A DNA stretch of 64,000 nucleotides from Euzebyales bacterium (GTDB lineage Bacteria; Actinomycetota; Nitriliruptoria; Euzebyales; JAHELV01): the NCBI GenBank assembly GCA_036374135.1, contig DASUUK010000034.1:1-64000 (forward strand), in the 5' to 3' direction. Shown here piece after piece: positions 47,756-64,000 of this stretch. The position numbers and the translations under genes are program-made. A model generated the notes under the pieces. That model made no database searches. It was not told where the DNA came from and was given only the letters and a program-made list of their open reading frames with translations. Numbering within the stretch: the first letter of the stretch is position 1; the number at the start of each line of letters is the position of its first letter.

Positions 47756-49264
47756 TCAGGCTGGTGTGCCGAGGCGGCGCAGCCGCTCGCCGCGGCGCTG
47801 CAGGCGCTCGTCCGCGGGGACGGCCGTCAATGACGTCAAGTGGTCGCCGACCCGGTCGCGCAGCGTGCCGATCCAGCCGTCGTACTCCGGCACGATGTCG
47901 TCGACCAGCCCGGCCCAGCGCAGTGCGGATGCGGTGATCGCCTGCTGGCGGGCCATGTCCGCCGCGTGGTCGGCCGACCGGAACAGTATCGCCGACGCCC
48001 CCTCGGGTGCGATCGGTGCCAGCCATGCGTGCTCGGCGGCGACGACGCGGTCGGCCGCAAGCCACGCGAGCGCGGACCCGCCGGACCCCTCGCCGAGCAG
48101 CACCCCCACCGTCGGCACCGCCAGCGCGGCCATGGCCATCATGGACAGGCCGATCTCGCGCGCGACCCCACCCGTCTCGGCGGCGGCCGAGGCCGCGGCT
48201 CCCCGGGTGTCGACGACGGTCACCAGCGGCAGGCCGAGCTCACCGGCGACGCCCATGGCCCGGCGTGCCGCCCGGTGGCCGACAGCTCCCAGACCGGCGC
48301 CCCGCTCCCCCGGTCGCCGGTCGTGACCGACCAGCACGAGACGGGTGCCCGACAGTCGACAGATCGCGGTCACGCACCCGTCGTCACGTCCGCCCGCGCC
48401 ATCACCGGCCAGCCGGACGAAGTCCTCGGTACCGGCCAGCAGCGCGCGCAGGCCGGGACGGTCCCCGCGCCGTGACACCTCGACCGCCGTCCACGCGTCC
48501 GCCCTCGTCGGCGGACCGATGCCGGGCGTCGGCACCGGATCGTCGGGCCAGGGGTGACGCGGCGCGTGAGTGCCGGGTGTCACCGGGCCGAGCGCATCGA
48601 TCGCCGCGGGCAACCGGGTCGTCAGTGCGCGTGCCGTGACGACCTCGTCGACCACGCCGTGCTCGGCGAGATGTTCCGCCCGTTGCACGTGATCGGGTAG
48701 CGCGGCGCCCTCGGTCGTCTCGATGACCCGTGGACCTGTCAGACCGATCAGCGCACCTGGCTGCGCCCAGGTGACGTGCGCGAGCGACCCCCACGACGCA
48801 AGCGACCCGCCGGTGGTCGGATGACGCAGCCACGCGATGTACCGCCCACCACCGCGCCGGTAGGCACCGACCGACGCGGCGATCTTGAGCATCTGCACGA
48901 ACGCCAGCGAGCCCTCCTGCATGCGGGTGCCGCCGGACGTCGGCAGCCCGACGACCGGCAACCGCTGTGCGGCGGCGCGATCGAACGCGCGGGCCACCCG
49001 CTCGCCGACCACGATCCCCTGGGTACCCGCGAGGAACTCGAACGCGCCGACGATCACCACCGCCGGTCGGCCCGCGATGCGCGCCCGCCCCGTGACCACG
49101 GCCTCCGACGTGCCCGCCCTCTCTGCCGCATCGTCCAGCCGGTCGGCGTAGCCGCGCGTGTCGTGGAAGTGCAGCGGATCGCCCGATCGCAGGTCGTCGT
49201 CCCACGGCGCGAAGCCACCGGCGACGGCGTCGATGACGTCGGCCGAGGACACCCGCCGGGTCAT
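47756..49264 (-). CDS. Carboxyltransferase (acetyl-/acyl-CoA carboxylase, AccD-AccA type)
   Basis: A 502-aa crotonase-fold carboxyltransferase with both halves in one chain. The beta-like N-half has VVGLPTSGGTRMQEGSLAFVQM and WGSLAHVTWAQPGALIGLTGP; the alpha-like C-half has LGLPLVTVVDTRGAAASAAAE and GEGSGGSALAWLAADRVVAAEHAWLAPIAPEG. It transfers a carboxyl group from carboxybiotin to an acyl-CoA. The Zn-finger of E. coli AccD is missing. CCGGAGCTGCG precedes the ATG. It is the last gene of the catabolic train, 36 bases behind the CoA-transferase. No biotin carboxylase or BCCP is adjacent, so these must be supplied elsewhere. The substrate acyl-CoA is unknown. Confidence 0.86.
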   Translation of the reverse strand: MTRRVSSADVIDAVAGGFAPWDDDLRSGDPLHFHDTRGYADRLDDAAERAGTSEAVVTGRARIAGRPAVVIVGAFEFLAGTQGIVVGERVARAFDRAAAQRLPVVGLPTSGGTRMQEGSLAFVQMLKIAASVGAYRRGGGRYIAWLRHPTTGGSLASWGSLAHVTWAQPGALIGLTGPRVIETTEGAALPDHVQRAEHLAEHGVVDEVVTARALTTRLPAAIDALGPVTPGTHAPRHPWPDDPVPTPGIGPPTRADAWTAVEVSRRGDRPGLRALLAGTEDFVRLAGDGAGGRDDGCVTAICRLSGTRLVLVGHDRRPGERGAGLGAVGHRAARRAMGVAGELGLPLVTVVDTRGAAASAAAETGGVAREIGLSMMAMAALAVPTVGVLLGEGSGGSALAWLAADRVVAAEHAWLAPIAPEGASAILFRSADHAADMARQQAITASALRWAGLVDDIVPEYDGWIGTLRDRVGDHLTSLTAVPADERLQRRGERLRRLGTPA

Positions 49265-49300
49265 CGCAGCTCCGGGCACGACCACGAGTGACCGGCACGG

Positions 49301-50461
49301 TCACCCATCCGGCACCCTCCACGCCTGCCCGTTGTGCTCGCCCAGCCGCGGCGGCGGTGTCGGCGGCTCGCGCTGCGATCTGCTGTAGGCCACCGGCGGA
49401 CCCGGGAGGCGGACCGGTCCGAGGGTGGGATGCTCGACCTCGTCGACCAGGCCGAGATGGGCGACCTGCGGTGAGTCGTACACCTCGTCGAGCCCGGCGA
49501 TGCGCCCCGCGGGCACGCCCGCCTCGTCGAGCCGTGCGAGCCAGGGGTCGACTCCGTCCGTCGTGAGCGCCTGTTCGATCAGCGCCTCGAGCTCGTCGAC
49601 ACGCGCGACGCGGTCGCCGTTGCTGGCGAACCGCTCGTCGTCCGGGTCGAGGCCCACCAGGGGCGCGAACCGGCGCCACAGGCCCTCCGAGCCCACGGCG
49701 AGGTTGATGCGTCCGTCAGCGCAGCGGAAGGTCCCGTACGGTTGGATGGACGGGTGCCGGTTGCCACCGGTGGCCGGCACGTCACCGGCGACCAGCCACC
49801 GCGTGCCCTGGAACGTGTGGATCGCGATCATCCCGCCGAGCAGCGAGCTGTGCACGCGCTGACCACGGCCGCTGCGCTCACGCTCGTACAGCGACGCGAC
49901 CACACCGTAGGCGCCGAACATGCCGGCGAGGATGTCGGCGATGGGCACGCCGACCTTCGTCGGCGGCCCGCCGACGGGACCGGTGAAGCTCATCAGGCCG
50001 CCCTCGCCCTGCAGGATCTGGTCGAACCCCGGACGATGTCCGTGCGGGCCGCCCCGGCCGAAGCCGGTGATCGACAGCGACACCAGCCGCGGGTTCAGCT
50101 CCTGGAGCTCCTCCTCCCCCAGGTGCAGACGTTCCATGACGCCCGGACGGAAGTTCTCGACCAGCACGTCGGCGTCGGCGATCAGGTCACGCAGCCGCCG
50201 CAGACCGCCGTCGTCCTTGAGGTCCAGCTCGATCGAGCGCTTGTTCCGGTTGATCGACAGGAAGTACGTCGACACGCGACCACCGCCGCCGTCCGGCGGA
50301 TGGGCGAACGGCGGTCCCCAGCCACGCGTGTCGTCGCCCGTCCGGGGGCGCTCGATCTTCAGCACGTCCGCGCCAGCATCGGCCAGCATCAACGTGGCGT
50401 ACGGTCCCGCGAGTGCGCGGGTGAGATCCACGACCCGTACGCCGGCCAACGGTCCGGCCAT
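49301..50461 (-). CDS. CaiB/BaiF CoA-transferase family III
   Basis: A 386-aa class III CoA-transferase. The start GVRVVDLTRALAGPYATLML is diagnostic, with DVLKIERP, LVENFRPGVMERL, SLSITGFG and GRGGPHGHRPGFDQILQ. The catalytic Asp should be in VGVPIADILAGM (about residue 175). It exchanges CoA between a donor thioester and a carboxylate via an acyl-aspartyl intermediate. The start ATG overlaps the hydantoinase B stop (TGATG). Within the train it would activate a carboxylic acid product to a CoA thioester, followed by the carboxyltransferase gene. Confidence 0.93.
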   Translation of the reverse strand: MAGPLAGVRVVDLTRALAGPYATLMLADAGADVLKIERPRTGDDTRGWGPPFAHPPDGGGGRVSTYFLSINRNKRSIELDLKDDGGLRRLRDLIADADVLVENFRPGVMERLHLGEEELQELNPRLVSLSITGFGRGGPHGHRPGFDQILQGEGGLMSFTGPVGGPPTKVGVPIADILAGMFGAYGVVASLYERERSGRGQRVHSSLLGGMIAIHTFQGTRWLVAGDVPATGGNRHPSIQPYGTFRCADGRINLAVGSEGLWRRFAPLVGLDPDDERFASNGDRVARVDELEALIEQALTTDGVDPWLARLDEAGVPAGRIAGLDEVYDSPQVAHLGLVDEVEHPTLGPVRLPGPPVAYSRSQREPPTPPPRLGEHNGQAWRVPDG

Positions 50462-52518
50462 CACCCACCCCCTGCGTCGTCACCGCGCGCGAGCGCGGCA
50501 CGCTCCGCATCGGACAGGTCATCGAACGGCGAACGGTCGGCGCCGTCCGCGAGGCGGGGATAGCCGGGGCCCCGATCGAAGAATGGCCGGTCGCCCCGCT
50601 CGGTGCGCAGGCGCTCGCGCAGCGCCGCCGTGGCCCCCACGTCGACCACGTCGACCGGCTCGTCGGGCACCGCGACGGGCGCGACCGCGGTCGGCGGCCA
50701 CCGCCGCGTCGGGTCGGTGGTGGCGAGCACCACGCCGTAGTCCCGCGTAGCCGCCTCACGCGACACCTTGCCCTGCACGACGTCGAGGAGCACCGCATCC
50801 GGGTCACGGTCCAGTGGGTCACCCCACCCGCCGCCGCCCGTCGTACGGATCCGCACGACCTCGCCGGCCCGCATCGGCTCTCCCGACGTCAGGCCCTCCA
50901 TCTCCCGCTCGTCGGGGCCGCTCGGGTCGATCGTCACGCGGAACGGTGCGCCGGCCATCCCCCCGGCCACACCCCAGCACGACAGGATCGAGCGGTCCGC
51001 GATCGACATGTACCTCGCGTCGCGCAGCATGCGGATCCACTTGTCGTACCCGAGCCCGCCCCGGTGATCGCCCGGTCCGCCCGAGTCGGTCGCCAGCGCC
51101 AGTCGTTCGACGCGGAACGGGTGCCGGCTCTCGGCGAACTCGACCGGGATGTTGCGCGAGTCGGGCACGACGTGGATGGTGTCCTCCCCGTCCGCGTACC
51201 AGCGCCCGCCCGAACCACCACCGAGCACCTCGCGCATGAGGTACGGGCGCCCGTCCTCGTCGTCGCCGTAGACGCCGGTGTAGCGGATGGTCTCCTGATC
51301 GGCCGGCATGCGCCCACCCGTCGCCTTGGCGAGCACGCCCGCAAGCACACCCAGCAGGCGCAGGATGACGAACGTCCGCGCGTTGGTCGGTGCAGGGAAG
51401 ATCGGCGTCAGCAGCGTGCCCTTGTCTGGAAAGCGCATCTCGATCAGGGGCACGACGCCCTCGTTGACGTCCAACTCGGCCATCCGCTCGGGCGTGTCGG
51501 CGAGGTTGCGCAGGATCGGCGCGAGCCACTTGGCCAGGAAGTTGCCGTTGGCGTAGTCGCCCGCGTGGTTGATCGGGCCCTTCGCCTGCGGCGACGTCCC
51601 GGTGAAGTCGATGACGATCCCGGTGTTGGACTTCGTCAGGGTGATCCGTTGGCCGTGCAGCCTCGGCGGGTCGACGCCGTCGTGCTCGGCGTAGTCCTCC
51701 CAGACGAACGTGCCGTCGGGGATCTTCGAGAGGATCTCGCGCCGGTACGTCTCGGTGGTGCGGTCGAGGATCGCGTCGAAGCACGCCTCGACGACGTCGC
51801 GGCCGTACCGGGCGAACAGGTCCGCCAACCGCCGCGCGCCCATCGTGCAGGCGCTGGCCTCGGCATCCAGGTCGCCGGCGAGGTGGTCGGGCATCCGCGA
51901 GTTCCGCGTCATGATCCGCAGCGCCGCCCGGTTGGGAACGCCGGCGTCCCACAGCTTGATCGGCGGGACCATCAGGCCCTCCTGGAAGACCTCCGTCGCG
52001 TCCGATGGCATCGACCCGGGCACCGCGCCACCGATGTCGTCGTGGTGACCGAACGCCTGGACGAAGGCGACCACCTCCGGCGCGTCGGCTGGCCGATCCC
52101 CACCCCCCGGCTCGCTGGCGCTCGCCCGCACCCGCCGGTCCCCACCCCCCGGCTCGCTGGCGCTCGCCCGCACCCGATCACCGGGATCGAAGACGGGCAC
52201 CGTGACGCACAGGTCGGGCAGGTGGCCGATGCCGCCCTCCGACGTGTAGACGTCGTTGTGGAAGTACACGTCGCCGGGACGCATCGTGTCCAACGGGAAG
52301 TCGCGCACCACCGGATGCACGAGCGCGCTGTAGCTGCGCCCCGTCAGCTTGCGCAGGCGCCGGTCGTGGATGCCGGCGCGGAAGTCGTGCGCGTCGCGGA
52401 TCATCGGTGACCGGGCGGTCCGGGCGATGGCCTCCTCGACCTCCGCCTCGACCGAGGCGAGCGTGCCCTCGACGATCTCGATGGTGATCGGATCGATGTC
52501 GGAGCGTGCGGTGCTCAC
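50461..52518 (-). CDS. hyuB: Hydantoinase B / oxoprolinase beta-type subunit with repeat insert
   Basis: A 685-aa HyuB family protein (N-methylhydantoinase B, 5-oxoprolinase C-half, acetone carboxylase alpha-type relatives). PGDVYFHNDVYTSEGGIGHLPD, AFGHHDDIGGAVPGSMP, GGGSGGRWYADGE and TTGGGGWGDPLDRDPDAV (the C-terminal G-G-G-G-x-G-D-P motif) are diagnostic. Between DPGD (residue about 114) and VVAFVQAFGHHD the protein carries two copies of RVRASASEPGGGDR (residues 115-142), encoded by the dispersed 42-bp repeat and absent from the family pattern. It starts with GTG overlapping the hydantoinase A stop. With HyuA it performs ATP-dependent ring opening of hydantoins, lactams or related cyclic amides. 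Confidence 0.9.
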   Translation of the reverse strand: MSTARSDIDPITIEIVEGTLASVEAEVEEAIARTARSPMIRDAHDFRAGIHDRRLRKLTGRSYSALVHPVVRDFPLDTMRPGDVYFHNDVYTSEGGIGHLPDLCVTVPVFDPGDRVRASASEPGGGDRRVRASASEPGGGDRPADAPEVVAFVQAFGHHDDIGGAVPGSMPSDATEVFQEGLMVPPIKLWDAGVPNRAALRIMTRNSRMPDHLAGDLDAEASACTMGARRLADLFARYGRDVVEACFDAILDRTTETYRREILSKIPDGTFVWEDYAEHDGVDPPRLHGQRITLTKSNTGIVIDFTGTSPQAKGPINHAGDYANGNFLAKWLAPILRNLADTPERMAELDVNEGVVPLIEMRFPDKGTLLTPIFPAPTNARTFVILRLLGVLAGVLAKATGGRMPADQETIRYTGVYGDDEDGRPYLMREVLGGGSGGRWYADGEDTIHVVPDSRNIPVEFAESRHPFRVERLALATDSGGPGDHRGGLGYDKWIRMLRDARYMSIADRSILSCWGVAGGMAGAPFRVTIDPSGPDEREMEGLTSGEPMRAGEVVRIRTTGGGGWGDPLDRDPDAVLLDVVQGKVSREAATRDYGVVLATTDPTRRWPPTAVAPVAVPDEPVDVVDVGATAALRERLRTERGDRPFFDRGPGYPRLADGADRSPFDDLSDAERAALARGDDAGGG
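52097..52176 (-). repeat. Dispersed repeat, tandem pair inside hydantoinase B
   Basis: Two identical 38-bp copies (52097-52134 and 52139-52176) with a 42-bp period, together adding about 28 in-frame codons to hyuB. On the minus strand each reads gggcgagcgc, cagcgagccgg and gtgggga, matching the glgC-glgA junction repeat in the same orientation relative to its gene. The 42-bp period, a multiple of three, leaves the reading frame open. Confidence 0.93.
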
Positions 52519-54587
52519 GCGGCCCCCTCCCGGCGCCGGATGACGAGGTTGGCCAGGTCGTCGACGCGCGCGACGAACCCGGGCGCGAGTGGCACGGTCG
52601 ACGAGAACTCCTGGACGACGGCGGGGCCGATCACCTCATCACCGGCCAGCAGGTCGGCACGGCGGTACAGATCCGCGTCGAGCCACCGGCCGTCGACGTG
52701 CACCGGACGCACGCCGATGCGCGCGCGCTCCACGTCGCCGTCGCCCGTCGCCAGACGACGCACCTTCGGGCGCTCGATCGGACCGATGCCACTGACCCGT
52801 ACGTTGACCCACTCGATCGCCTGCGAGGGATCGTCGCGGTAGCAGTAGCCGTACGTGGCGTCGTGGGCGTCGTGGAACCGGCGCACCACCTCGGTCGTGA
52901 ACGCGTCATCGATCGTGCCGCCGGGTGCATCCACGCGGACCTCCGACGCCTGGCCCGCGTAGCGCAGGTCGGCCTGGCGGAGGTATGTGCGATCGGCCCC
53001 GTCGAACCGCTCCGCGCGCAATGCCTCGGCCGCGCGGTCGTGCAGGCCGGCGTAGACGGCTGCGATTTCGCCGACGTCGAGATCCGCGTTCGTGCGGACG
53101 AACGTCTGCACGAAGTCGTTGCGCACGTCGACTGTCAGCAGTCCGAACGCCGACAGGTTGCCCGGGTTGGCGGGCACGAGCGCCGCCGACAGCCCCAGCA
53201 GGTCGACCAGTCGGCACACCTGCAGCGGTCCCGAGCCACCGAATGCCGCGAGCACGTGGTCGCGCACGTCCAGCCCACGCTTCACCGTCACCTGGCGGAT
53301 CGCGTTGGCCTGGTTCCACACCGCGATCTCGAGCACACCCTCGGCACAACGCTCGACATCGTCGATGCCCCACGCGCCGGCGAGCTTCGTGATTCCCCCA
53401 CGCGCGGCGTCGACATCGAGCGCCATCTCCCCCTCGAGCAGCGCGTCCGGCAGCCGTCCCAGCACGAGATGCGCGTCGGTCACGGTGGGTTCGGTGCCAC
53501 CGGTGCCGTAGCACAACGGTCCCGGATCCGCGCCCGCTGACCGTGGACCGACCTTGAGCGCGCCGTCGGCGGTCTGCCACGCGATCGATCCGCCGCCGGT
53601 ACCGACTGTCACGACATCGATCATCGGCACCTTGGTAGGGAAGCGCCCCACCGTCCCCTCGGTGGTCAGCGCCGGCTCCCCGGCGGTGACGACGCACACG
53701 TCGGTGGACGTGCCACCGCCGTCGAGCGTCAAGACCTTGTCATGACCGACGGCGTCGGCGATGACCGCGGCTCCCAGCGCACCTGCGGCCGGACCCGACA
53801 GGATCGTCGTGATCGGCTGCTGCGCCACCTCCTCCGCCGAGATGACCCCGCCGTTGGACTTCATCACGTAGAACGGGACGCCCTGCCTGACCTCGTCGAG
53901 GCCGAACCGGATCTGCGCGACGTAGCGGCCGACCCGTGGCTTGACGAACGCATCGACCAGGGTGGTGACGGCGCGCTCGTACTCCCGGTACTCCCGCAGC
54001 ACGTCGGACGAGATCGAGACGGTGCAGTCCGGGTGCTCGCGGGCGAAGATCTCGCGGACCCGCTGCTCGTGCGCGGGGTTGGCGTAGCTGTGCAAGAAGC
54101 TGATGCCGACGCACGCGATGTCCTTCGCGGCGAACCAGCGCGCGACCTGCGCGGCCGCGTCGACGTCGAGCTCGCGCACGACCTCGCCGTCGGGACCGAG
54201 CCGTTCGGGCACCTCTCGCACATGGTGCAACGGCACGATGCGCGGTGGCTTGACCCAGAAGTACGAGTTGCCGTAGCCCGAGGGCACGCTCTGCCGCGCG
54301 ATCTCGAGCAGGTGCCGGAAGCCCGCGGTCGTGACGAAGCCCAGCCCCTCGTAGTCGTCGGCCAGCAGCGCGTTCGTGGCGACGGTCGTGCCATGGCTGA
54401 CCGACGCGACGCCGTCGCCGTCGCGGCCCAGGCGCGCGAGGATCTTGCGGATCCCCGCCATGAATCCGCGCGCCGGGTCGTCGGGCGTCGACGGCGTCTT
54501 GGTGATGGTGACGGTGCCGGACGCGGAGTCGAACGCCACCACGTCGGTGAACGTGCCGCCCGTGTCGACACCGATCCGCAGCGTCAC
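52515..54587 (-). CDS. hyuA: Hydantoinase A / oxoprolinase ATPase subunit
   Basis: A 690-aa HyuA family protein with an ASKHA ATPase fold. RIGVDTGGTFTDVVAFD is the phosphate-1 motif, VSHGTTVATNALL the next family motif, LTLDGGGTSTDVCVV the phosphate-2 motif, GTGGGSIAW follows and AAFGGSGPLQV is the adenosine-side motif. The late C-terminal domain has VRRFHDAHDATYGY. It hydrolyses ATP to drive cleavage of a cyclic amide, in complex with HyuB. AAGGAGCCGGT precedes the GTG. It overlaps the amidase stop (GTGA) and the hyuB start (GTGA), so the three are tightly coupled. Substrate not determined: N-methylhydantoin, hydantoin, oxoproline and caprolactam are known for relatives. Confidence 0.94.
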   Translation of the reverse strand: MTLRIGVDTGGTFTDVVAFDSASGTVTITKTPSTPDDPARGFMAGIRKILARLGRDGDGVASVSHGTTVATNALLADDYEGLGFVTTAGFRHLLEIARQSVPSGYGNSYFWVKPPRIVPLHHVREVPERLGPDGEVVRELDVDAAAQVARWFAAKDIACVGISFLHSYANPAHEQRVREIFAREHPDCTVSISSDVLREYREYERAVTTLVDAFVKPRVGRYVAQIRFGLDEVRQGVPFYVMKSNGGVISAEEVAQQPITTILSGPAAGALGAAVIADAVGHDKVLTLDGGGTSTDVCVVTAGEPALTTEGTVGRFPTKVPMIDVVTVGTGGGSIAWQTADGALKVGPRSAGADPGPLCYGTGGTEPTVTDAHLVLGRLPDALLEGEMALDVDAARGGITKLAGAWGIDDVERCAEGVLEIAVWNQANAIRQVTVKRGLDVRDHVLAAFGGSGPLQVCRLVDLLGLSAALVPANPGNLSAFGLLTVDVRNDFVQTFVRTNADLDVGEIAAVYAGLHDRAAEALRAERFDGADRTYLRQADLRYAGQASEVRVDAPGGTIDDAFTTEVVRRFHDAHDATYGYCYRDDPSQAIEWVNVRVSGIGPIERPKVRRLATGDGDVERARIGVRPVHVDGRWLDADLYRRADLLAGDEVIGPAVVQEFSSTVPLAPGFVARVDDLANLVIRRREGAA

Positions 54588-55855
54588 ACCGGCTCCTTCG
54601 CGAGCTGATCGCCCAGCCATCGCGCTGCGGCCAGCACAGCGCCGTCGTCGTTGCGGTCGCCCACGACCTGGACGCCCAGCGGCAGACCGTCCGGGCCGCG
54701 CAGCCCTGGCACCGCCACGGCTGGCGTGCCGAGCAGCGTCCACATCCGGCAGAACACCGGATCACCCGTCGCGCCCAGACCCTCGGGCGCCTCACCGATC
54801 GCGCTCGGCACGAGCATGACCGGGTGCTGCGCGAACACTGCGGGCAGCGCGCCGCGACAGCGGTCCGCCAACGCCCGCGCCTCCTCCAGGTCGTCCGGCC
54901 GGATCGCGCGTGACTGCGCCAGCAGAGCGCGCAGGTCCTCGCTCAACACCTCCGGATGCGCCCGGTGCTCGGCATCGAGCGCGGTGACCACCTCGACGCC
55001 CATGATCAGCGCCTGCGCGTCCACGAGGTCGGCGAACTCGTCGGGCAGTGTGATGTGCGGCAACCCCAGGCGTTCGGCGAGCGCCGTCAAAACGTCCCGG
55101 GTGGCCGCAGCGGCCTGCTCCCACTGATGCGTCCGCGCGAACGCGACCGCTGGAGGCGCCGACGGCACGTCCCACGGAGCACCGTCGGCCATGACGCCGG
55201 CGGCGACCGCAAGATCGTCGACGCTCCGGGCCAGCGGCCCGAGTGTGTCCAGGCTCGGACCGATCGGCTTGACACCCGTCGTGCCGATGACGCCGAACGT
55301 CGGTTTGAAGCCGTAGATGCCGCAGAACGACGCGGGCCGCACGATCGAGCCCGCCGTCTGCGTGCCCAGCGCGAGAGGCGCCATGCGGTCGGCCACCGCC
55401 GCTGCCGATCCGCTGGACGAGCCGCCCGGGGTCCGGGTCAGGTCGCACGGGTTCGCCGTCGGTCCAGGGTGGAACAGCGCGAACTCCGTCGTAACGGTCT
55501 TTCCGAGGACCACGGCGCCGGCATCGCGCAGCCGCTGCACGCACATCGCGTCCCGCGCCGGTCGGTGTCCGGCGTAGATCGGCGACCCGTAGGACGTGGG
55601 CGCGTCGCCCGTGTCGATGAGGTCCTTGATGCCGACCGGCACGCCGTGCAGTGGTCCCGTGGGCTCCTGCTCGTCGCGCAGCCGTGCCGCGGCGAGCGCC
55701 GCATCGCGGTCGACGTGCACCCACGCCCGCACCTGCGTCTCGCGCTCGGCGATGCGGTCGAGGCACGCGGTCACGACCTGGGTCGCCGTCACGTCACCGG
55801 TGCGGATGGCTGAAGCGACCTGCGTGGCGCTGAGCTCGTGGAGACGGTCGTTCAT
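54584..55855 (-). CDS. Amidase (amidase signature family)
   Basis: A 423-aa amidase. The Ser-cisSer-Lys triad is in GVPVGIKDLIDTG (Lys), GGSSSGSAAAVADRM (cis-Ser) and GTQTAGSIVRPASFCG (nucleophile Ser), which is the complete AS signature. It hydrolyses a linear amide, ureide or carbamoyl compound; biuret hydrolase/allophanate hydrolase- and Glu-tRNA amidotransferase GatA-type relatives exist, but no GatB/C genes are near. Start ATG at 55855, 19 bases behind CoxG; the stop overlaps hyuA. In the train it would cut the open-chain amide produced by HyuAB, or the product of the hydroxylase. Confidence 0.92.
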   Translation of the reverse strand: MNDRLHELSATQVASAIRTGDVTATQVVTACLDRIAERETQVRAWVHVDRDAALAAARLRDEQEPTGPLHGVPVGIKDLIDTGDAPTSYGSPIYAGHRPARDAMCVQRLRDAGAVVLGKTVTTEFALFHPGPTANPCDLTRTPGGSSSGSAAAVADRMAPLALGTQTAGSIVRPASFCGIYGFKPTFGVIGTTGVKPIGPSLDTLGPLARSVDDLAVAAGVMADGAPWDVPSAPPAVAFARTHQWEQAAAATRDVLTALAERLGLPHITLPDEFADLVDAQALIMGVEVVTALDAEHRAHPEVLSEDLRALLAQSRAIRPDDLEEARALADRCRGALPAVFAQHPVMLVPSAIGEAPEGLGATGDPVFCRMWTLLGTPAVAVPGLRGPDGLPLGVQVVGDRNDDGAVLAAARWLGDQLAKEPV

Positions 55856-55874
55856 GACGGCCTGCCAGATGCGT

Positions 55875-56528: not shown

Positions 56529-58966
56529 GCTCGATGAACCTCCTCGAGGTGGGCGATGTTGCTGCCGAGCGCGCCGACCGGCGCGAGCACCGCCTCCCCG
56601 TCGGTGTCGAGCAGTCGGAACAGTTCGTCGGGTGACAACGGCATCCGTCTGACGGGCAGCCCGGTCGCGTCCTCGATCGCCGCGGCGATGGCCGCCGCAC
56701 CCGGGATCACACCGGCCTCGCCGGCGCCCTTGATGCCCAGCGGGTTCAACGGCGACGGGGTCTGCAGGTGGTCGGTGCGCACGGGCGGCACCTCGCTGGC
56801 ATACGGCATCAGGAAGTCCATGAACGACGCGTTGAGCAGTTGCCCGTGCTCGTCGTACGCCATCCGCTCGTACAGCGCTCCGCCGATCCCCTGCGCCACA
56901 CCCCCGTGGATCTGCCCCTCGACGATCCGTGGGTTGATGAGGTTGCCGCAGTCGTGCACCACCGCGTAGTCGAGCACGGACACGTCGGCCGTCTCGGGGT
57001 CGACCTCGACGATCACCGCGTGCATGCCGTTGGCGAACGTCGACCGCGGTGGCGAGTAGTACGCCTTCGCCTCGAGACCGGGTTCCTCCCCGTCGCGGAC
57101 CGGCGGATCGTCCGGATCGGCGGGCAGCGAGAACTGGGTCGCCGCCTGCGCCGCCTTGCTGAAGGAGTAGCGCAACGGGTTCGACAGCACCGCCACCTGG
57201 TTGAGTGGGATCCGCTCCTCCGGACTGCCCTTGACCCGGACGACGCCGTCGACGATCTCGAGATCCTCGGGGTTGGCCTCCAGTGCCCTGCCTGCGACGA
57301 GGCGGGCCTTCTCGGCGACCGCCCGCGCGGCCAACGCGATCGCGTTGCCGCTCATGACCGCCGCCCGTGACGCGAACGTGCCGACGGCGTACCCGAAGCG
57401 ACGCGTGTCGCCGGTCGTGATGTGCACCTGTTCGAGCGGTACGCCCAGCTCGGTCGCCACGATCTGCGCGAACGCGGTCTCGTGGCCCTGCCCCTGCGTC
57501 GTCAGCCCGGTCGACACCATGACGCGACCGCTGGTCTCGACATGGACGTGTGCGCCCTCGTACGGCCCCACCCCCGTCCCCTCGACGTAGCAGGCCATCC
57601 CGATGCCGATGCGTCGCCCCCGCTCGGCGGCGTCACGGCGACGCTCGGCGAAGCCGTCCCAGCCGATCAGGTCCTTCAGCCTGCGCAGCACAGCGGGGTA
57701 GTCACCGGAGTCGTAGATCGCCGGCCGCCCGTCCTGGAAGATGAGCCCGAGGTCGTAGGGGAACTCGTCGGGCTGGATGAGGTTGACGGCACGCACCGCG
57801 GTCCGGTCCAACCCCAGCTCCCTCGCGATCGCGTCGATGGTGCGTTCCATCGAGTAGACGGCCTGCGGCCTGCCGGCGCCACGGTACGGCGTGACGATCA
57901 CCGTGTTGGTGTACAGGCTCGAGAACTCGACCCGGTAGTTGGGCAACCGGTACGGCCCGGGCAGCTGCGTCGACGTGATGATCGGGACGATCACGCCGTA
58001 CGGCGTGTACGCGCCGTTGTCGTGGAGGAACCGCACGTCGAGCGCGAGCACCCGGCCACCGTCGTCGTAGCCGACGGTGACCTCGTGGACCTGGCCGCGC
58101 TCGTGCGCGCTCGAGACGAAGTGCTCGCGGCGGTCCTCGGTCCACTTCACCTCGTGGCCGAGCGTCATCGCCGCCCATGGGACCAGCAGTTCCTCGGGCC
58201 ACGGGTGCATGATCTTGACGCCGAACCCACCGCCCACGTCGGGCGCGATGACCTCGACGTGGACATCGGCCAGATCGAACACCGCCGCGATCACGGCTCG
58301 TACGCTGGTCGACGTCTGGGTCGACGAGTAGACGCGCAGGCGGCCGTCGTCGGGGTCCCACCGGGCATACACGCCGCGGCCCTCCAGCGGCGTGCTGGCG
58401 CTGCGCTCGATCTCCCAACGCAGCTCCAGGCGGTGCGGGGCTTCCGCGAGCGCCGCGTCGACGTCGCCGACCTCCTGCACGAGGTGGGCCGCGACGTTGT
58501 CGTCAACGCCGTCGTGCACCACCTCGTCGGCCGCGGCGGCGGCTTCGACGCCCACGACGGCCGGGAGGGGCTCGTAGGTCACGACCACCCGCTCGGCGAT
58601 GTCCTCCGCGACGTAGCGGTCGGTGGCGACCACCATCGCCACGGGCTCGCCGACGTGGCGGACCACCTCCGGCGCCAGGGCGTACCCGGTCCGCGGCGCG
58701 GTGAGGCAGGGGTGCGGGATCAGCAGCGGTAGCGGGTCCGCCAGCCGGCCCGGTAGGTCCTCGTGCGTGTAGATCGCGATCAGGCCGTCGAGGTCCAGGG
58801 CATCGGTCACGTCGATGTCGGTGATCCGCGCGTGCGCATGGGGGCTGCGCACGAACGCGGCGGCGTACGCGTCGTGACCGAGGTCGTCGAGGTACCGACC
58901 GTCGCCCCGGAGCAGGCGCGGATCCTCGCGACGGGCGATCGCCTCGCCGAACTGCTGCGTCGTCAC
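56525..58966 (-). CDS. Molybdenum hydroxylase large subunit (form II CoxL-like)
   Basis: An 813-aa xanthine-dehydrogenase/CO-dehydrogenase large-chain protein. DVGGGFGVK (about 243-251) and GQGHETAFAQIVA bind molybdopterin, and GIKGAGEAGVIPG carries the active-site Glu. The motif at 360-366 is PYRGAGR, the form II type, not the A-Y-x-C-S-F-R of true CO dehydrogenase; the selenide-linked Cys is lacking. Form II enzymes hydroxylate diverse aromatic or heterocyclic substrates. GTG start overlaps the small-subunit stop (GTGA). With CoxS- and CoxM-like subunits it forms an (LMS)2 enzyme, cytosolic or CoxG-tethered. Confidence 0.92.
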   Translation of the reverse strand: MTTQQFGEAIARREDPRLLRGDGRYLDDLGHDAYAAAFVRSPHAHARITDIDVTDALDLDGLIAIYTHEDLPGRLADPLPLLIPHPCLTAPRTGYALAPEVVRHVGEPVAMVVATDRYVAEDIAERVVVTYEPLPAVVGVEAAAAADEVVHDGVDDNVAAHLVQEVGDVDAALAEAPHRLELRWEIERSASTPLEGRGVYARWDPDDGRLRVYSSTQTSTSVRAVIAAVFDLADVHVEVIAPDVGGGFGVKIMHPWPEELLVPWAAMTLGHEVKWTEDRREHFVSSAHERGQVHEVTVGYDDGGRVLALDVRFLHDNGAYTPYGVIVPIITSTQLPGPYRLPNYRVEFSSLYTNTVIVTPYRGAGRPQAVYSMERTIDAIARELGLDRTAVRAVNLIQPDEFPYDLGLIFQDGRPAIYDSGDYPAVLRRLKDLIGWDGFAERRRDAAERGRRIGIGMACYVEGTGVGPYEGAHVHVETSGRVMVSTGLTTQGQGHETAFAQIVATELGVPLEQVHITTGDTRRFGYAVGTFASRAAVMSGNAIALAARAVAEKARLVAGRALEANPEDLEIVDGVVRVKGSPEERIPLNQVAVLSNPLRYSFSKAAQAATQFSLPADPDDPPVRDGEEPGLEAKAYYSPPRSTFANGMHAVIVEVDPETADVSVLDYAVVHDCGNLINPRIVEGQIHGGVAQGIGGALYERMAYDEHGQLLNASFMDFLMPYASEVPPVRTDHLQTPSPLNPLGIKGAGEAGVIPGAAAIAAAIEDATGLPVRRMPLSPDELFRLLDTDGEAVLAPVGALGSNIAHLEEVHRA

Positions 58967-59700
58967 GACCCGTCCCCCTCGTCCTCGTCGCGGTTCGTGT
59001 CGCCGGCGTCGTCATGGTCGCCGGGGACGGCATCGCCGGCCGGTGCGTACGGTGCCGTCGCGACCGCCTCCGGCGGCGGATGGTGCGAGGCCACCTCGCC
59101 GGCGTCGGCGCGAGGAACGGCGTCGGCGTCCGCGCCGACCGGCTCGTCCGCGCGCAGGAGCTCGGCGGCACGCTCGACCGCGGCGACGATGTTGGCGTAG
59201 CCGGTGCAGCGGCACAGGTTTCCGGAGATGCCTTCGACGATCTCGTCGCGGTCGGGATCCGGGTTGCCGGCCAGCAACCCGGCGACCGACATGAGGAAGC
59301 CGGGCGTGCAGAACCCGCACTGCAGCCCGTGACACTCCTGGAACGCCCGCTGGATCGGATGGAGCTGATCGTCACGGTCGTCATCCGCCCCGGCGCCGGC
59401 ATGCCGGCGCCCGGGCGAGAGCCCCTCGACGGTCGTGATCTCGTGGCCCTCCGCACTGACCGTGAACATCAGACAGCTGCGCACCGGCGCACCGTCGAGG
59501 AGCACGGTGCAGCAGCCGCAGACGCCGTGCTCGCATCCGACGTGGGTGCCGGTCAGCCGCAGGTCGTGGCGCAGCGCGTCGCTCAGCAGCCGCCGCGCCG
59601 GAACGTCCACCGTGTGGGTCGTGCCGTTGACGCGCAGGGTGACCTGGATGGTCTGACCGCGGTACGCGCCGCCGTGGCGTGCTGACGTCTGGTCAGACAT
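58963..59700 (-). CDS. [2Fe-2S] small subunit of molybdenum hydroxylase, with insertion
   Basis: A 245-aa CoxS-type protein. The plant-type [2Fe-2S] cluster is at Cys56, Cys61, Cys64 and Cys76 (CEHGVCGCC), and the second cluster is at Cys128, Cys131, Cys163 and Cys165 ([16 protein letters not shown]). Two oddities: about 16 extra residues (96-111, [17 protein letters not shown]) between the domains, encoded by DNA with a 20-bp perfect palindrome, and an acidic, Ala/Pro-rich C-terminal extension of about 65 residues after the last helix. The typical length is 155-175 aa. GGAGGTCACCG gives the ribosome site, within the CoxM end (8-base overlap). Confidence 0.9.
59392..59411. repeat. 20-bp perfect palindrome inside the CoxS-like gene
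   Basis: ggcgccggca followed directly by its complement tgccggcgcc, centred at 59401/59402. It lies in the segment that encodes the extra residues 96-111 of the small hydroxylase subunit. Perfect symmetry without a loop is unusual in coding DNA of this size. Confidence 0.9.
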
Positions 59701-60601
59701 CGGTGACCTCCGCATCCGATGACAACGCTGTCCGTGCTCTGGCGTGCGCCGTCGCCCGCCGCAGCGCGCGTTGGGTCAGGACCCGCGTCAGATGCCGACG
59801 GTAGGCCACCGTGGCGTGCAGATCCGCCTCCGGCCGGCTCGCGTCGTCGACGAGCTCCGCGGCCGCGGCGAACGCGGTGTCGTCGGGAGCGGAGCCAACG
59901 ACGGCATCGGTGCAGTCGACGACCAGCGGCGTGGGATGCACGCTGATGGCCCCGACCCGTGCGGTCGACACGGCACCGTCACGATCGAGCGTGACGGTCG
60001 CCCCGACGCCGCACAGCGCATAGTCGCCGTGACGGCGTGCGATCTCCACGAACGCGCTCCCGCCGGCGTCGGGCTGACGCGGGAATCGGACGGACTCGAC
60101 CATGTCGCCCGGCTCCAGACTGCTCTCGAGCGGGGCCACGAAGAAGTCCGCGGGCGAGACGTCGCGCGGTTCACTGCCGTGCCGGACGATCCGCACCGTG
60201 CCGCCGAGCACTGCGAGCACGGCCGTCATCTCGCCCGCGGGATCGGCGTGCGCGATGCTGCCGCAGGTCGTGCCGCGGTTGCGGATGACCGGGTGGGCGA
60301 CGAGCCGGAGCGCCTGACGCAGCAACGGGGCGGCGCGGTCGGCGGCCTCGTGGCGTTCGAGCGCCGCGTGCCGTACGGCAGCGCCCACCGTGACGGCGTC
60401 TTCGTCGACGTCGATGTGGTCCAGCGCGGCAATGCGGTTGATGTCGACCAGGTTGGCCGGCGCGGCCAGGCGCATGTTCAGGAGCGGGATCAGGCTCTGT
60501 CCGCCGGCGAGGACCTTGGCCTCGTCACCGAGGTCGTGCAGGGTCGCCAGCGCTTCGTCTACGGTCGTCGGCGCGTGGTAGGCGAACGGTGGGGGCTTCA
60601 C
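59693..60601 (-). CDS. FAD-binding medium subunit of molybdenum hydroxylase (CoxM-like)
   Basis: A 302-aa PCMH-type flavoprotein. AGGQSLIPLLNMRLA and RNRGTTCGSIAHADPAGE are the two FAD-binding motifs; IVRHGSEPRDVSPADFF and ARRHGDYALCGVGATVTL are middle-domain family segments, and the C-terminal CO_deh_flav_C domain covers about 180-285. It accepts electrons from the iron-sulfur subunit. The GTG start follows the DUF1116 stop by one base; its end overlaps the CoxS-like start. Cytosolic. The set has the order M-S-L as in cox-like operons. Confidence 0.92.
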   Translation of the reverse strand: MKPPPFAYHAPTTVDEALATLHDLGDEAKVLAGGQSLIPLLNMRLAAPANLVDINRIAALDHIDVDEDAVTVGAAVRHAALERHEAADRAAPLLRQALRLVAHPVIRNRGTTCGSIAHADPAGEMTAVLAVLGGTVRIVRHGSEPRDVSPADFFVAPLESSLEPGDMVESVRFPRQPDAGGSAFVEIARRHGDYALCGVGATVTLDRDGAVSTARVGAISVHPTPLVVDCTDAVVGSAPDDTAFAAAAELVDDASRPEADLHATVAYRRHLTRVLTQRALRRATAHARARTALSSDAEVTDV

Positions 60602-60602
60602 G

Positions 60603-62051
60603 TCATGCGACCTCTCGCTCCGCTGCTGGCGGCGGCTCCTCGGCCCGCTCGGCGAGCGCCTCGACGGCGGCCACGAAGCACGCCATCGGTGGCTCGACCA
60701 ACCCGGCACCGACCTGACCGGTACCGGCCTCGCGACCCGCCATGCCGGTGTTGACCGCGGGCACGACGCCGGTGCGGACGACCCGCGTGGCATCGATGCC
60801 CACCGGGGTACCGCGGAACCCGAGGATCGGGATCTGGTACGCCGTGTGCTCGGCCAGCGCGATCTCATACATCGCCAGTGTGAACGCCAGGGCGTCGGTG
60901 ACGTCGCCACCGACGAACCGCACGATGGCCGGTGCCGCGGCCATCGCGAACCCGCCGATGCCGGCGGTCTCGGTGATGGTCGAGTCGCCGATGTCCGGGT
61001 TGGCGTCCTGTGGGCCGTAGCCCGAGAGGAACAGCCCGTCGGGCACACCGGCGGGGCCTGTGAACCACGCGTCTCCCGTGCCCGAGCACTGCACCCCGAA
61101 CTCCGTCCCGTTGCGAGCCATGGCCACGACCATGCTCGAGCCCGCGATGTCGCGTGCCGCGTCGGCGGCGCACTTGGCGGCGGGCATGACCAGGTTGAGG
61201 AAGAAGTGGTCGTTGCCGTTGATGAACCGCAGGACCTGCGCGATGTCGACGGCCGGGGCATCGACCTCGACCAGGTCGCCCGCGATCTCGCGGAGGAACA
61301 ACGACGAGCCGGCGCGGTTGCGGTTGTGCCCCTCGTCACCCATCTGCAGCGCCTGCACGATCAGCGCCCGGATGTCGATCGGTCCGTGCGCCCGCAGCGC
61401 CGCGCGGGTCAGCGGCGCCAACGTGTGCTCCATCCACCGGAGCCGCTCGATGACCTCCTGGCCGAACGCGCCGTAGCGCAGCACCTTGCCGAGCCCCTCG
61501 TTCTGCGTGCAGTGCGCAGTCACGCCGTGCTCGTCATCGTGGAGCACGTACATCGGCATCGACGGGCTTACGACGCCGGCCATCGGTCCGACCGCGCCGT
61601 GCTCGTGGCACGGCGCCAGGTTGACCTCGCCCCGCTCGGCCATGGCGATCGCGGCGCCGGGATCGTCGGCCCATCCCTCGTACAGCAGCGCGCCGATGAT
61701 CGCGCCCCGCAGGGGTCCCGACGCGTCCGCCCACGCGATGGGCGGCCCGGCGTGCAGCAGCGTGCGGTCGCCGAGGCCGTCGATGGCGTCGCGCGCGGTC
61801 ACGACGTCGACCAGGTGTGGCCGCGCGGCCTGCAGGCGCGCCACGCCCCGTGCGTTGGCGTCGTCGAGCCGGGGGTCGCCGGCCACGCGTGCCAACGCGT
61901 CGCCCGCCCCGGCCGGCGGGCGCCATTCGGTGCGCACGGCAGTGGCGCCCTGCGCGTCGAGCGCGTCGGCGAACATCCCGACACCGGCGGTCACGACCCT
62001 GGGTTCGTCCGCCAGCAACGCGGCCAGCGGCGTGTCCGACGCGCCGTTCAT
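60603..62051 (-). CDS. DUF1116 protein (AllG/YlbE-like)
   Basis: A 482-aa DUF1116 family protein. Conserved segments are GALLYEGWADDPGAA, NLAPCHEHGAVGPMAGVVSPSMP, MGDEGHNRNRAGSSLF, FLNLVMPAAKCAADAA and GTGDAWFTGPAG (all typical). In E. coli the homologue YlbE is AllG, a subunit of oxamate carbamoyltransferase with AllF (FdrA) and AllH (YlbF, DUF2877). Here all three are adjacent. GGAGGGCTCCGC gives the ribosome site and the ATG overlaps the FdrA stop (ATGA). The enzyme would phosphorolyse a carbamoylated compound to carbamoyl phosphate; the exact substrate is inferred. Confidence 0.86.
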   Translation of the reverse strand: MNGASDTPLAALLADEPRVVTAGVGMFADALDAQGATAVRTEWRPPAGAGDALARVAGDPRLDDANARGVARLQAARPHLVDVVTARDAIDGLGDRTLLHAGPPIAWADASGPLRGAIIGALLYEGWADDPGAAIAMAERGEVNLAPCHEHGAVGPMAGVVSPSMPMYVLHDDEHGVTAHCTQNEGLGKVLRYGAFGQEVIERLRWMEHTLAPLTRAALRAHGPIDIRALIVQALQMGDEGHNRNRAGSSLFLREIAGDLVEVDAPAVDIAQVLRFINGNDHFFLNLVMPAAKCAADAARDIAGSSMVVAMARNGTEFGVQCSGTGDAWFTGPAGVPDGLFLSGYGPQDANPDIGDSTITETAGIGGFAMAAAPAIVRFVGGDVTDALAFTLAMYEIALAEHTAYQIPILGFRGTPVGIDATRVVRTGVVPAVNTGMAGREAGTGQVGAGLVEPPMACFVAAVEALAERAEEPPPAAEREVA

Positions 62052-63559
62052 GCGGAGCCCTCCACAGCGGAGACGAGCCGCACGGCTTCGCGGGCGGCCT
62101 CGGCGTTCGACAGGCACACGATCGCTCCGGCGTCCGTCAACGCCTTGGCCTGGCGGTCCAGCCCCTGCGGGTCGTCACCGGTCCCACAGAGCGACACGAC
62201 GACGGCCAGGCGGTCGCCGCGGTCGTCGGCCGTCCGCCGTGCGGCGGCGAGGGCCGGCGCGAGCGCGCCGGCCGGGTCGGCGTCGGCGCCGTGCCCGAGC
62301 ACGACATCGAGCAGCAGTGTGTGGCTGCCGGGGCGTTGCGCCGTGCGTTCCATCCGGGCGATGCGCAGACCGTGGTCGATCATGGGATGCGGACGGCCCC
62401 GTGTCATGTCGTCCTCGCCGAGGTCGATCATCACGTGGCCGTCCGCGTCGTCGCCGTCGGGCAGCGCCCAGTCGGGCTCCAGCGGGATGTTCGACCGGAC
62501 CGGTCCGAGCGCCTCGGCGGCGATCACCATGGCCTCGTCGCACAGCGTGCCGCCACTGAACAGGCCGCGCACATCACCGTGCGCGGGTGCGGGCGGGTCC
62601 GCCGGATCCCAGCGCAGGTGCGCGTCGACCGCGTGGCCGGCGTACGCTGCGACCTCGTCGGCGACCGCGGTCAGGTCCCGCTCGCCCCGCCCGACGAAGC
62701 CGAGCACGACATGCGTGGCGCAGGCCGCGGCCGCCTCGCGCACCCTGGCGGCCACCTGTGGGTCCGGCGGTTTGGACACGATGACGATGAGCTCGGTACG
62801 GGGGTCGGCGTCCAGCGCCCTGAGCGCCGTGAGCGTGGAGGCACCGCCGATCTGCGCCGACAGGTCGCGTCCACCGACACCCAGCACGTGGCGGAGGCCG
62901 ACGCCCGCCGCGTCGAGCAGGCAGCACACCTGTTGGGCGCCGGTGCCCGACGCGGCGACCATGCCGACCGGCCCCGGACGGACGACGTTGGCGAACCCGA
63001 GACCGACGCCACCGACGATCGCGGTGCCGCAGTCGGGTCCCATCACCAGCAGACCGCGTCGATCGCCTTCGGCCTTGAGGGCGATCTCCTGCGCGACGGG
63101 CACGTTGTCGCTGAACAGCATGACGTGCAGCCCGGCGCGCAGCGCATCCATCGCCTCGACGTACGCGTGCTCCCCCGGCACGGAGATCAGCGCGAGGTCC
63201 AGATCGGTGGACCGCGCGGCTCCACCGACGGTGCGCGGGGGCGGCGCGCTGAAGTCACCGCCCACGCTGGACGTCGATGTAGCCGCGAGCGCGGCATCGA
63301 TCTGCGCGCGCGCCGCGGCTACCGTCGCGTCGTCGGCGGCGCGCACCGCGACGACGAGATCGTTGGGCGTCGCGTCGTCGATGTGCTGGCCGAACCCGAG
63401 ATCGGCCAGGATCCCGAGGTTCAGCTCGGTTGCCATCGCGACGACCGCCTCGTCGACGCCATCGATCGCGGTGATGTCCCGCGAGACCTGCAGCAGCGTC
63501 ACCGAGTCGTGGTAGACGCCGTGCCGGAGCTCGAGGTGGGTCGTGCTCGCGGCGCTCAT
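62048..63559 (-). CDS. fdrA: FdrA (AllF-like) acyl-CoA-synthetase-fold protein
   Basis: A 503-aa FdrA family protein: succinyl-CoA-synthetase-alpha-like folds arranged as CoA-binding/Rossmann parts. It has MGPDCGTAIVGGVGLGFAN, VGMVAASGTGAQQV, GVGGRDLSAQIGG, IVIVSKPPDP, FSGGTLCDEAMV and RGRPHPMIDHGLRIARM (a C-terminal family motif). E. coli FdrA (AllF) is a subunit of oxamate carbamoyltransferase in allantoin breakdown. ATG at 63559 overlaps the DUF2877 stop (ATGA). The neighbouring DUF1116 and DUF2877 genes make the complete set of three subunits. Confidence 0.9.
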   Translation of the reverse strand: MSAASTTHLELRHGVYHDSVTLLQVSRDITAIDGVDEAVVAMATELNLGILADLGFGQHIDDATPNDLVVAVRAADDATVAAARAQIDAALAATSTSSVGGDFSAPPPRTVGGAARSTDLDLALISVPGEHAYVEAMDALRAGLHVMLFSDNVPVAQEIALKAEGDRRGLLVMGPDCGTAIVGGVGLGFANVVRPGPVGMVAASGTGAQQVCCLLDAAGVGLRHVLGVGGRDLSAQIGGASTLTALRALDADPRTELIVIVSKPPDPQVAARVREAAAACATHVVLGFVGRGERDLTAVADEVAAYAGHAVDAHLRWDPADPPAPAHGDVRGLFSGGTLCDEAMVIAAEALGPVRSNIPLEPDWALPDGDDADGHVMIDLGEDDMTRGRPHPMIDHGLRIARMERTAQRPGSHTLLLDVVLGHGADADPAGALAPALAAARRTADDRGDRLAVVVSLCGTGDDPQGLDRQAKALTDAGAIVCLSNAEAAREAVRLVSAVEGSA

Positions 63560-64000
63560 CCTTCGATCCTCTCCGATGTGAGCACGTCGACGGCGATGGT
63601 GATGCCTGCCAGCAGATCCTGCCCGGATGTGTGACCGATCCTCGTCAGCGCTGTCACGGCGCCGTCGAGCCGACCCTGCCCGGCCAGGGCCCGGAGCACC
63701 CGTCCGGCCGCGCCGACCACCGCGGCGTCGTCGGCGCACCGCAGCAGCGTCGATGACAGCGCGGTGGTGTGGTGCGCGTGACGGCGGCTGTGCCGTGCGA
63801 GCGCATCGGCCACAGGTGCCGTCGCGCCGGTGCCGAGCACGCGCAACGCCGCCAGTGCCCCGGCCACCACGTCGTCGCCGGCGGGCGTGGATCCAGCGCC
63901 GCGGCCGATCAGCTCGGCGACGGCCGGTCCGAGCGCCGACAGATCGTGGCGCATCGCGGCGGCCGCCAACCGCCGCACGCCGGCGCGCACCCCGAACGCG
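63556..64000 (-). CDS. DUF2877 protein (AllH/YlbF-like), 5' end beyond window
   Basis: The frame is open to the window edge, so only the C-terminal 148 or so residues are seen. ELIGRGAGSTPAGDDVVAGALAALR is the DUF2877 signature (L-I-G-x-G-x-G-x-T-P-x-G-D-D). TTALSSTLLRCADD and ALTRIGHTSGQDLLAGITIA (the S-G-x-D-x-L-x-G motif) follow. This is the third subunit (AllH-type) of the FdrA-DUF1116-DUF2877 set. It is the first gene of the train visible here; more genes may precede it. Confidence 0.85.
   Translation of the reverse strand, partial: AFGVRAGVRRLAAAAMRHDLSALGPAVAELIGRGAGSTPAGDDVVAGALAALRVLGTGATAPVADALARHSRRHAHHTTALSSTLLRCADDAAVVGAAGRVLRALAGQGRLDGAVTALTRIGHTSGQDLLAGITIAVDVLTSERIEG

Follow-up and report, generated by a model that had tools for sequence, protein, structure and literature searches.

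Oxidative degradation of pyrimidines has been described as a route in which oxidation of the pyrimidine yields barbiturate, the ring of which is opened by barbiturase to give ureidomalonate (3-oxo-3-ureidopropionate), and ureidomalonase splits this product into malonate and urea (Soong and co-workers, cited in PMC3758960). Barbiturases belong to the AtzD/TrzD family, for which a catalytic Ser/Lys dyad has been described and whose cyanuric acid hydrolases form carboxybiuret (PMC4051656). The three-subunit transcarbamylase AllFGH has been described in E. coli, where it acts as an oxamic transcarbamylase (EC 2.1.3.5), forming carbamoyl phosphate and oxamate from oxalurate and phosphate, and where the operon also holds a carbamate kinase (PMC11326118); the three genes had earlier been ranked as candidates by context, without experiment (PMC3364942). 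Here, we describe an operon of a Euzebyales bacterium (contig DASUUK010000034.1) that combines a barbiturase-type ring opener, a molybdenum hydroxylase, AllFGH and carbamate kinase. The window, that is the whole stretch of 64,000 nucleotides analysed, corresponds to bases 1-64000 of this 149,874-bp contig, and the operon runs across its right edge. We consider it probable that the operon serves to catabolise pyrimidines oxidatively and that one step of this pathway is phosphorolytic and yields ATP.

The operon comprises 16 contiguous genes on the minus strand, from 69400 to 47756, with no gap longer than 23 bases (start codons were picked by ribosome-binding site and homology). Twelve catabolic gene families had been proposed for the window in a sequence-only reading, made without database searches; Pfam and NCBIfam profile searches located all of them at 47756-64416, on one strand and in the order proposed. 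Eight of their eleven junctions are overlaps of 1, 4 or 8 bases, in agreement with the statement that most overlap by 1-8 bases, and gaps of 1, 15 and 19 bases occur at the remaining three. The twelve genes had been presented as a catabolic train, which was right as to a single operon but too short, since they form its downstream part and four further genes of the same strand, encoding carbamate kinase, a permease, a deaminase-like protein and the barbiturase, lie beyond the right window edge with gaps of at most 23 bases. The barbiturase-type gene (68306-69400; PF09663, 480 bits, over the cut-off) stands at the upstream end. Carbamate kinase (ArcC, 64413-65399; NF009007, 303 bits, cut-off 266) is followed by the three predicted transcarbamylase subunits, namely, AllH (DUF2877, 63556-64416; PF11392, 75.9 bits), inside which the window ends, AllF (FdrA, 62048-63559; NCBIfam FdrA, 419.9 bits, cut-off 433), whose best solved relative is 3dmy, 'Protein fdrA', and AllG (DUF1116, 60603-62051; PF06545, 320-322 bits). 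Like E. coli AllFGH and AllK, AllF, AllG, AllH and carbamate kinase share one operon; unlike in E. coli, where allantoin genes accompany them, they stand here with barbiturase and a molybdenum hydroxylase.

When compared with solved structures, the ring opener scores 523 bits with the barbiturase 5hwe and 318 bits with the best cyanuric acid hydrolase, and 245 of 364 aligned residues (67%) are identical to 5hwe. The AtzD/TrzD-family members of the compared loci form two groups, one sharing 62-86% identity with 5hwe and the other at most 48%. The latter consists of the Citrobacter and Klebsiella plasmid proteins discussed below, an Aminobacter protein and the proteins of genomes G107, G205 and G233, that of G233 reaching 461 bits with cyanuric acid hydrolase versus 276 with barbiturase. 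K158 and S226/S227, numbers that were paired with the catalytic dyad of the family by motif, are invariant in nine barbiturase-type rows. At the place of Arg188 of cyanuric acid hydrolase, also matched by motif, Asn is found here and in 5hwe, and Arg in TrzD; the barbiturase subgroup is said to carry Gln there (PMC4051656). The ring opener is likely a dedicated barbiturase that would open barbiturate. Cyanuric acid was rejected as a substrate of the operon, its ring opener being of the barbiturase type, whereas the plasmid ring openers tested are cyanuric acid hydrolases.

The association of this gene with AllG was surveyed in 396 genomes of the phylum, each at least 85% complete. The AtzD/TrzD family occurs in 28 of these genomes and AllG in 52. 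In 25 of the 28, the family member is of the barbiturase type (66% to 86% identity to 5hwe), although G054 contributes a 187-residue fragment. All 25 genomes with a barbiturase-type gene carry AllG, compared with none of the three that have only a cyanuric-acid-hydrolase-like gene and 27 of the 368 with neither type (Fisher p of about 2e-25, with no correction for kinship). The window's own class accounts for 20 of the 25, and G117, G137, G316, G363 and G364 fall in five other families. Barbiturase and AllG share one contig in 20 genomes, 2.7-43 kb apart, and are on separate contigs of draft assemblies in the remaining five (G003, G017, G035, G041 and G042).

The barbiturase alignment was further scanned against a collection of 84,980 species, from which the best 80 named loci were used, although more exist. 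Gene presence in these loci and in the phylum regions was counted by tblastn, with queries taken from the operon and from a few relatives. ArcC is encoded within 10 kb of barbiturase in 46 of the 80, directly upstream in 41 and directly downstream in two, and AllF and AllG are each within 10 kb in 29. Of the 51 of these loci without flanking AllG, 50 genomes were tested genome-wide, and 38 of them carry AllG elsewhere. Two gammaproteobacterial loci, L097 and L098, have the row barbiturase-ArcC-AllH-AllF-AllG-malonyl-CoA decarboxylase-malonyl-CoA synthase-TRAP binding protein, the decarboxylase and TRAP protein of L098 being assigned by similarity to their L097 counterparts; both ligases exceed the malonyl-CoA synthase cut-off of 558, with scores of 783 and 795 bits. 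Compact clusters joining barbiturase and AllFG(H) to a molybdenum hydroxylase resembling xanthine dehydrogenase (XDH) were found in L095, L096, L100, L114, L151, G316 and G363. The linkage of predicted AllFG and carbamate kinase to barbiturase spans families and two phyla. For the single pathway drawn from the twelve families, the sequence-only reading had counted neighbours keeping only subsets of them as evidence against it, and the outcome is mixed: the combination of barbiturase and AllFG is widely retained and carbamate kinase occurs often, whereas HyuAB, the amidase and the CaiB-carboxyltransferase pair were found in some relatives only, many of the phylum regions and loci being truncated at the end of a contig or at the 10-kb limit of the flank. 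Three conserved neighbours, chorismate synthase, dehydroquinate synthase and a ribosomal S4 protein, have the appearance of housekeeping genes and were discarded as pathway genes. An aminotransferase family is present in 18 loci, in several just upstream of ArcC.

In a tree of 68 AllG rows, obtained by a short search and having an unsure root and several long branches, all 55 rows from barbiturase genomes lie on one side of one branch (SH-aLRT 97), and the barbiturase trait requires one change compared with a shuffled mean of 12.1. These 55 rows come from Actinomycetota and two Gammaproteobacteria, and in a few of them the two genes are more than 10 kb apart or on different contigs. Outside this side stand E. 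coli AllG, two cyanuric-acid-linked sequences, two from other plasmids and eight from genomes without the AtzD family. AllG of the operon is in a clade separate from that of E. coli. The sequences of G045 and G055, relatives from the class of the window's genome, are identical to those of loci L124 and L143, named Nitriliruptorales/Nitriliruptoraceae, which points to Actinomycetota, class Nitriliruptoria, for this genome. With regard to residues, 82 columns of AllG and 47 of AllF are conserved in at least 95% of barbiturase rows and in all others, E. coli included; clade-separating columns number one in AllG (R431) and zero in AllF, too few to infer specificity.

From these data we infer every substrate and every reaction of the following pathway. 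The nucleobase permease would import cytosine or uracil, the deaminase-like hydrolase would convert cytosine into uracil, CoxMSL(G) would oxidise uracil to barbiturate, and barbiturase would open barbiturate to ureidomalonate. AllFGH would then catalyse the attack of phosphate on the terminal carbamoyl group of ureidomalonate, yielding carbamoyl phosphate and malonamate; this step is proposed by analogy, ureidomalonate being the homologue of the E. coli substrate oxalurate with one additional CH2. Carbamate kinase would convert carbamoyl phosphate into ATP, ammonia and CO2, the amidase would hydrolyse malonamate to malonate and ammonia, CaiB would activate malonate as malonyl-CoA, and the carboxyltransferase would decarboxylate the latter to acetyl-CoA. 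The assignments of CoxMSL as a uracil dehydrogenase, of a role to HyuAB and of a substrate to the amidase are the least certain. The sequence-only reading was right in outline about the amide step and about the capture of the carbamoyl group in the form of carbamoyl phosphate. The oxamate carbamoyltransferase set that it recognised is present as AllFGH, its substrate, in contrast to the E. coli enzyme, being most likely ureidomalonate and not oxalurate, as judged by analogy. The operon resembles the described oxidative pathway by its barbiturase, by a molybdenum hydroxylase for the oxidation slot and by malonate handling, and differs by the proposed phosphorolytic split to carbamoyl phosphate in place of an end in urea and malonate. 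No paper linking barbiturase with AllFGH/FdrA, or proposing ureidomalonate phosphorolysis, was found in an open-access library, two of the listings being judged on the best 30 of 33 and 25 of 712 papers. If the proposal is correct, ureidomalonate phosphorolysis would add a new reaction to pyrimidine catabolism, with malonamate and substrate-level ATP as its yield, and the barbiturate branch of pyrimidine breakdown in many Actinomycetota would conserve a phosphate bond and need no urease.

The molybdenum hydroxylase is encoded by coxM (FAD subunit, 59693-60601; PF00941, PF03450), coxS ([2Fe-2S] subunit, 58963-59700; PF01799, PF00111) and coxL (molybdopterin subunit, 56525-58966; Pfam), followed by coxG (55875-56528; PF06240). 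Form I CO dehydrogenases carry a cysteine in their loop motif, AYxCSFR. In CoxL, the loop at residues 360-366 is PYRGAGR, the motif noted in the sequence-only reading, and the nearest solved relatives are quinoline 2-oxidoreductase 1t3q (463 bits) and 6-hydroxypseudooxynicotine dehydrogenase (452 bits), ahead of the CO dehydrogenases 8uem (409 bits) and 1n5w (380 bits). CO oxidation by CoxLMS was rejected on the loop motif and these relatives. The NCBIfam model NF040766, named 'aerobic carbon-monoxide dehydrogenase' ('CODH_aero_grp5'), matches CoxL at 1458 bits (cut-off 950), and this name is likely a misnaming of the group, given the PYRGAGR loop and the proximity to quinoline oxidoreductase. 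The proposal that a form II enzyme hydroxylates a nitrogen heterocycle holds in outline, and the ring can now be narrowed to, most likely, uracil or cytosine. CoxMSL might be a uracil dehydrogenase, a step for which we know of no gene, and the proposal would supply candidates for it. The oxidation slot beside barbiturase seems to be filled by two molybdenum hydroxylases, one of the CoxL type and one XDH-like. Upstream of these genes, the operon encodes an NCS2 nucleobase permease (65396-66874; NCS2_1, 67.6 bits, cut-off 40), located to the right of position 64000, where the sequence-only reading had advised looking for a transporter, and a cytosine-deaminase-like amidohydrolase (66898-68292; PF07969). 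The permeases of L149 and G072 resemble RutG, but neither these nor the permease of the operon reach the cut-off for RutG, uracil permease or xanthine permease. The Rut pyrimidine pathway was rejected for this genome, in which the best match to RutA scores 55.7 bits (cut-off 498), and a count of the dihydroorotate dehydrogenase family was discarded as uninformative on reductive pyrimidine breakdown.

At the malonate end, CaiB, a family III CoA-transferase (49301-50461; PF02515, 409 bits), has dicarboxylate CoA-transferases as its nearest NCBIfam models, below cut-offs. It is followed by a fused carboxyltransferase of 509 residues with an AccD-like N half and an AccA-like C half (47756-49285; Pfam ACCA/Carboxyl_trans), which gives weak, sub-cut-off matches to biotin-independent malonate decarboxylase subunits. 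Family searches found no biotin carboxylase or carrier protein among the 16 operon genes. In L145 and L149, the order is CaiB-carboxyltransferase-ArcC-barbiturase, and both this arrangement and the malonyl-CoA genes of L097 and L098 fit a malonate product. The amide slot is taken by the amidase in the operon and by copies 50% to 58% identical to it in G005, G030, G031, G034 and G039; in L149, a carbon-nitrogen hydrolase occupies it, and the regions of G137 and G364 also give matches. CoA activation followed by carboxylation had been suggested for the carbon skeleton; the activation can be retained, but with malonate as the proposed skeleton, CaiB and the carboxyltransferase are more likely to activate and decarboxylate it than to carboxylate it, malonyl-CoA decarboxylase and malonyl-CoA synthase being present in the two gammaproteobacterial clusters.

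Two readings would leave AllFGH outside pyrimidine breakdown. One of them takes it for a conventional oxamic transcarbamylase that uses oxalurate like its E. coli counterpart and is placed beside pyrimidine genes by chance. It would account for the presence of all three subunits together with carbamate kinase and for a residue core common to the E. coli enzyme, and yet the linkage of AllFG is to barbiturase, the AllG clade is apart from that of E. coli, and AllD (ureidoglycolate dehydrogenase), the source of oxalurate in E. coli, is over its cut-off in none of the 25 genomes with barbiturase and AllG, although it was in the E. coli control; allantoinase and other allantoin genes were not searched for. 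We rejected a supply of oxalurate by AllD on this ground and regard the reading as a whole as unlikely. In the other, the pathway would be hydrolytic, with the amidase (amidase-signature protein with a GGSSSGS motif, 54584-55855; PF01425) acting as ureidomalonase to give malonate and urea, and with AllFGH and carbamate kinase serving something else. Such a route is the described one (PMC3758960), and an amidase directly follows barbiturase in the Pseudolabrys locus L161, the genome of which is without AllG. However, the tight linkage of barbiturase to AllFG and carbamate kinase speaks against it, as does the fate of urea: the genome, 96% complete, has no match to urease and none over cut-off to urea carboxylase, just partial carboxylase and carrier domain matches, so that urea would be a dead end by these two routes. 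Strong urease matches are present in 6 of the 25 genomes with barbiturase and AllG versus 8 of the 12 barbiturase genomes without AllG (p 0.027), a difference confounded by the comparison of Actinomycetota with mainly Alphaproteobacteria, so that the urease result is applied to the window's genome alone; G001 and G423, which have weak urease fragments, were scored as negative. The hydrolytic route is likewise improbable in our eyes.

A further alternative, compatible with the phosphorolytic pathway and offered tentatively as a possibility, concerns HyuAB (HyuA, 52515-54587; PF01968, PF05378, PF19278; HyuB, 50461-52518; PF02538, 451 bits), annotated as subunits of an ATP-dependent hydantoinase/oxoprolinase. 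Two ring-opening branches might coexist in the operon, barbiturase acting on uracil-derived barbiturate and HyuAB on a second ring such as thymine-derived 5-methylbarbiturate or a hydantoin, and AllFGH would receive the products of both. In the compact clusters with barbiturase, AllFG(H) and an XDH-like enzyme, the stretches that were read gave no HyuAB, yet it stands beside CoxMSL and AllFG without barbiturase in G202 and G090, and in one row with barbiturase in the alphaproteobacterial loci L168 and L170; on the other hand, the second substrate is conjectural. The best NCBIfam match of HyuA is caprolactamase alpha (497 bits, cut-off 1000), and the gene occurs in 10 of 19 phylum regions and 5 of the 80 best loci, with HyuB in 8 of the latter. 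HyuAB likely acts on a second ring. Where ring opening had been ascribed to HyuAB, the opening itself is upheld, and the dedicated barbiturase is the likely opener, instead of HyuAB or alongside it.

Several observations weigh against the phosphorolytic pathway or parts of it. AllG is absent from 12 of the 50 barbiturase genomes that were searched as a whole (ten from Alphaproteobacteria, one from Dehalococcoidia and one actinobacterial), so that barbiturase does not need AllFGH everywhere, and 27 phylum genomes carry AllG in the absence of any AtzD-family gene. The rows of G202 (L073, 6302-16742) and G090 (L074, 9722-19984) carry CoxMSL-HyuAB-AllFG in genomes with no AtzD-family match, and because they stand without barbiturase, CoxMSL and HyuAB may serve another ring; the AllG branch of these two genomes adjoins the barbiturase-linked clade. 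As to the entry of the substrate, the operon's permease scores 278 bits for xanthine versus 126 for uracil, both under cut-off, and the cytosine-deaminase-like protein reaches 233 bits with PRK07572, below the family cut-off of 438. Among the downstream genes, the amidase is found in 6 of 19 phylum regions and 1 of the 80 best loci, and the carboxyltransferase in 1 of 19 and 8 of 80. To these points must be added the six genomes with strong urease matches and the sub-cut-off AllD-like matches in 6 of the 25 genomes, that of the Euzebyales bacterium included (146 bits, cut-off 496).

AllFGH genes are also found next to other ring openers and hydrolases. Plasmid pSR8 of Aminobacter sp. SR38 (L175) carries the row fdrA-DUF1116-ring-opening amidohydrolase-arcC, and a Klebsiella quasipneumoniae plasmid (L176) has the same row with allophanate hydrolase close by. 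On an IncA plasmid of Citrobacter freundii (L181), a hydrolase, a nucleobase symporter, DUF2877, fdrA, DUF1116 and arcC follow one another between IS26 copies. The Klebsiella ring opener, a near-match of TrzD, scores 810 bits with cyanuric acid hydrolase (5t13) versus 327 with barbiturase, and that of Citrobacter 584 versus 324. These TrzD/AtzD cassettes resemble the operon in that a ring opener is lined up with AllFG and carbamate kinase, and differ from it in that the ring opener is a cyanuric acid hydrolase and AllG falls elsewhere in the tree. Carboxybiuret, the product of cyanuric acid hydrolase (PMC4051656), is the aza analogue of ureidomalonate, and the plasmid rows suggest phosphorolysis of carboxybiuret or biuret. 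Other contexts include the E. coli plasmid pEC5931-1 (L180, 5807-13017), with the row cysteine hydrolase-DUF2877-fdrA-DUF1116-carbamate kinase-hypothetical-cytosine permease, and a plasmid of Peptoclostridium acidaminophilum (L178, 3589-12351), with two xanthine permeases, a cysteine hydrolase, DUF2877, fdrA, DUF1116 and carbamate kinase, and a PucR regulator upstream; AllG was matched by 96 Escherichia plasmid records. In nitrifiers, allFGHK has been reported beside triuret/biuret genes and read by the authors as serving oxalurate degradation (PMC12625717). Like the present one, that set accompanies ureide genes that are not those of allantoin, and the string 'barbitur' is absent from that paper. 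We lean slightly towards viewing AllFGH as a family of acylurea phosphorolases in which the adjoining ring opener determines the substrate, namely, ureidomalonate after barbiturase, 1-carboxybiuret or biuret after cyanuric acid hydrolase, and oxalurate in E. coli. A three-subunit transcarbamylase known for one substrate would then become a family with at least two, and the locus annotations 'CO dehydrogenase', 'acyl-CoA synthetase FdrA' and 'DUF1116' would become correctable.

Further to the right on the contig (71635-79189), divergent genes for a branched-chain-amino-acid/urea-type ABC transporter are found together with an AMP-forming ligase, and these are not obviously operon members. Between them and the operon lies an M24 family gene (69706-71043), located 305 bases upstream of barbiturase, the product of which scores 435 bits with DddP (cut-off 600). 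This M24 gene is kept upstream of barbiturase in G001 and G002, and another M24-like protein is encoded upstream in L097.

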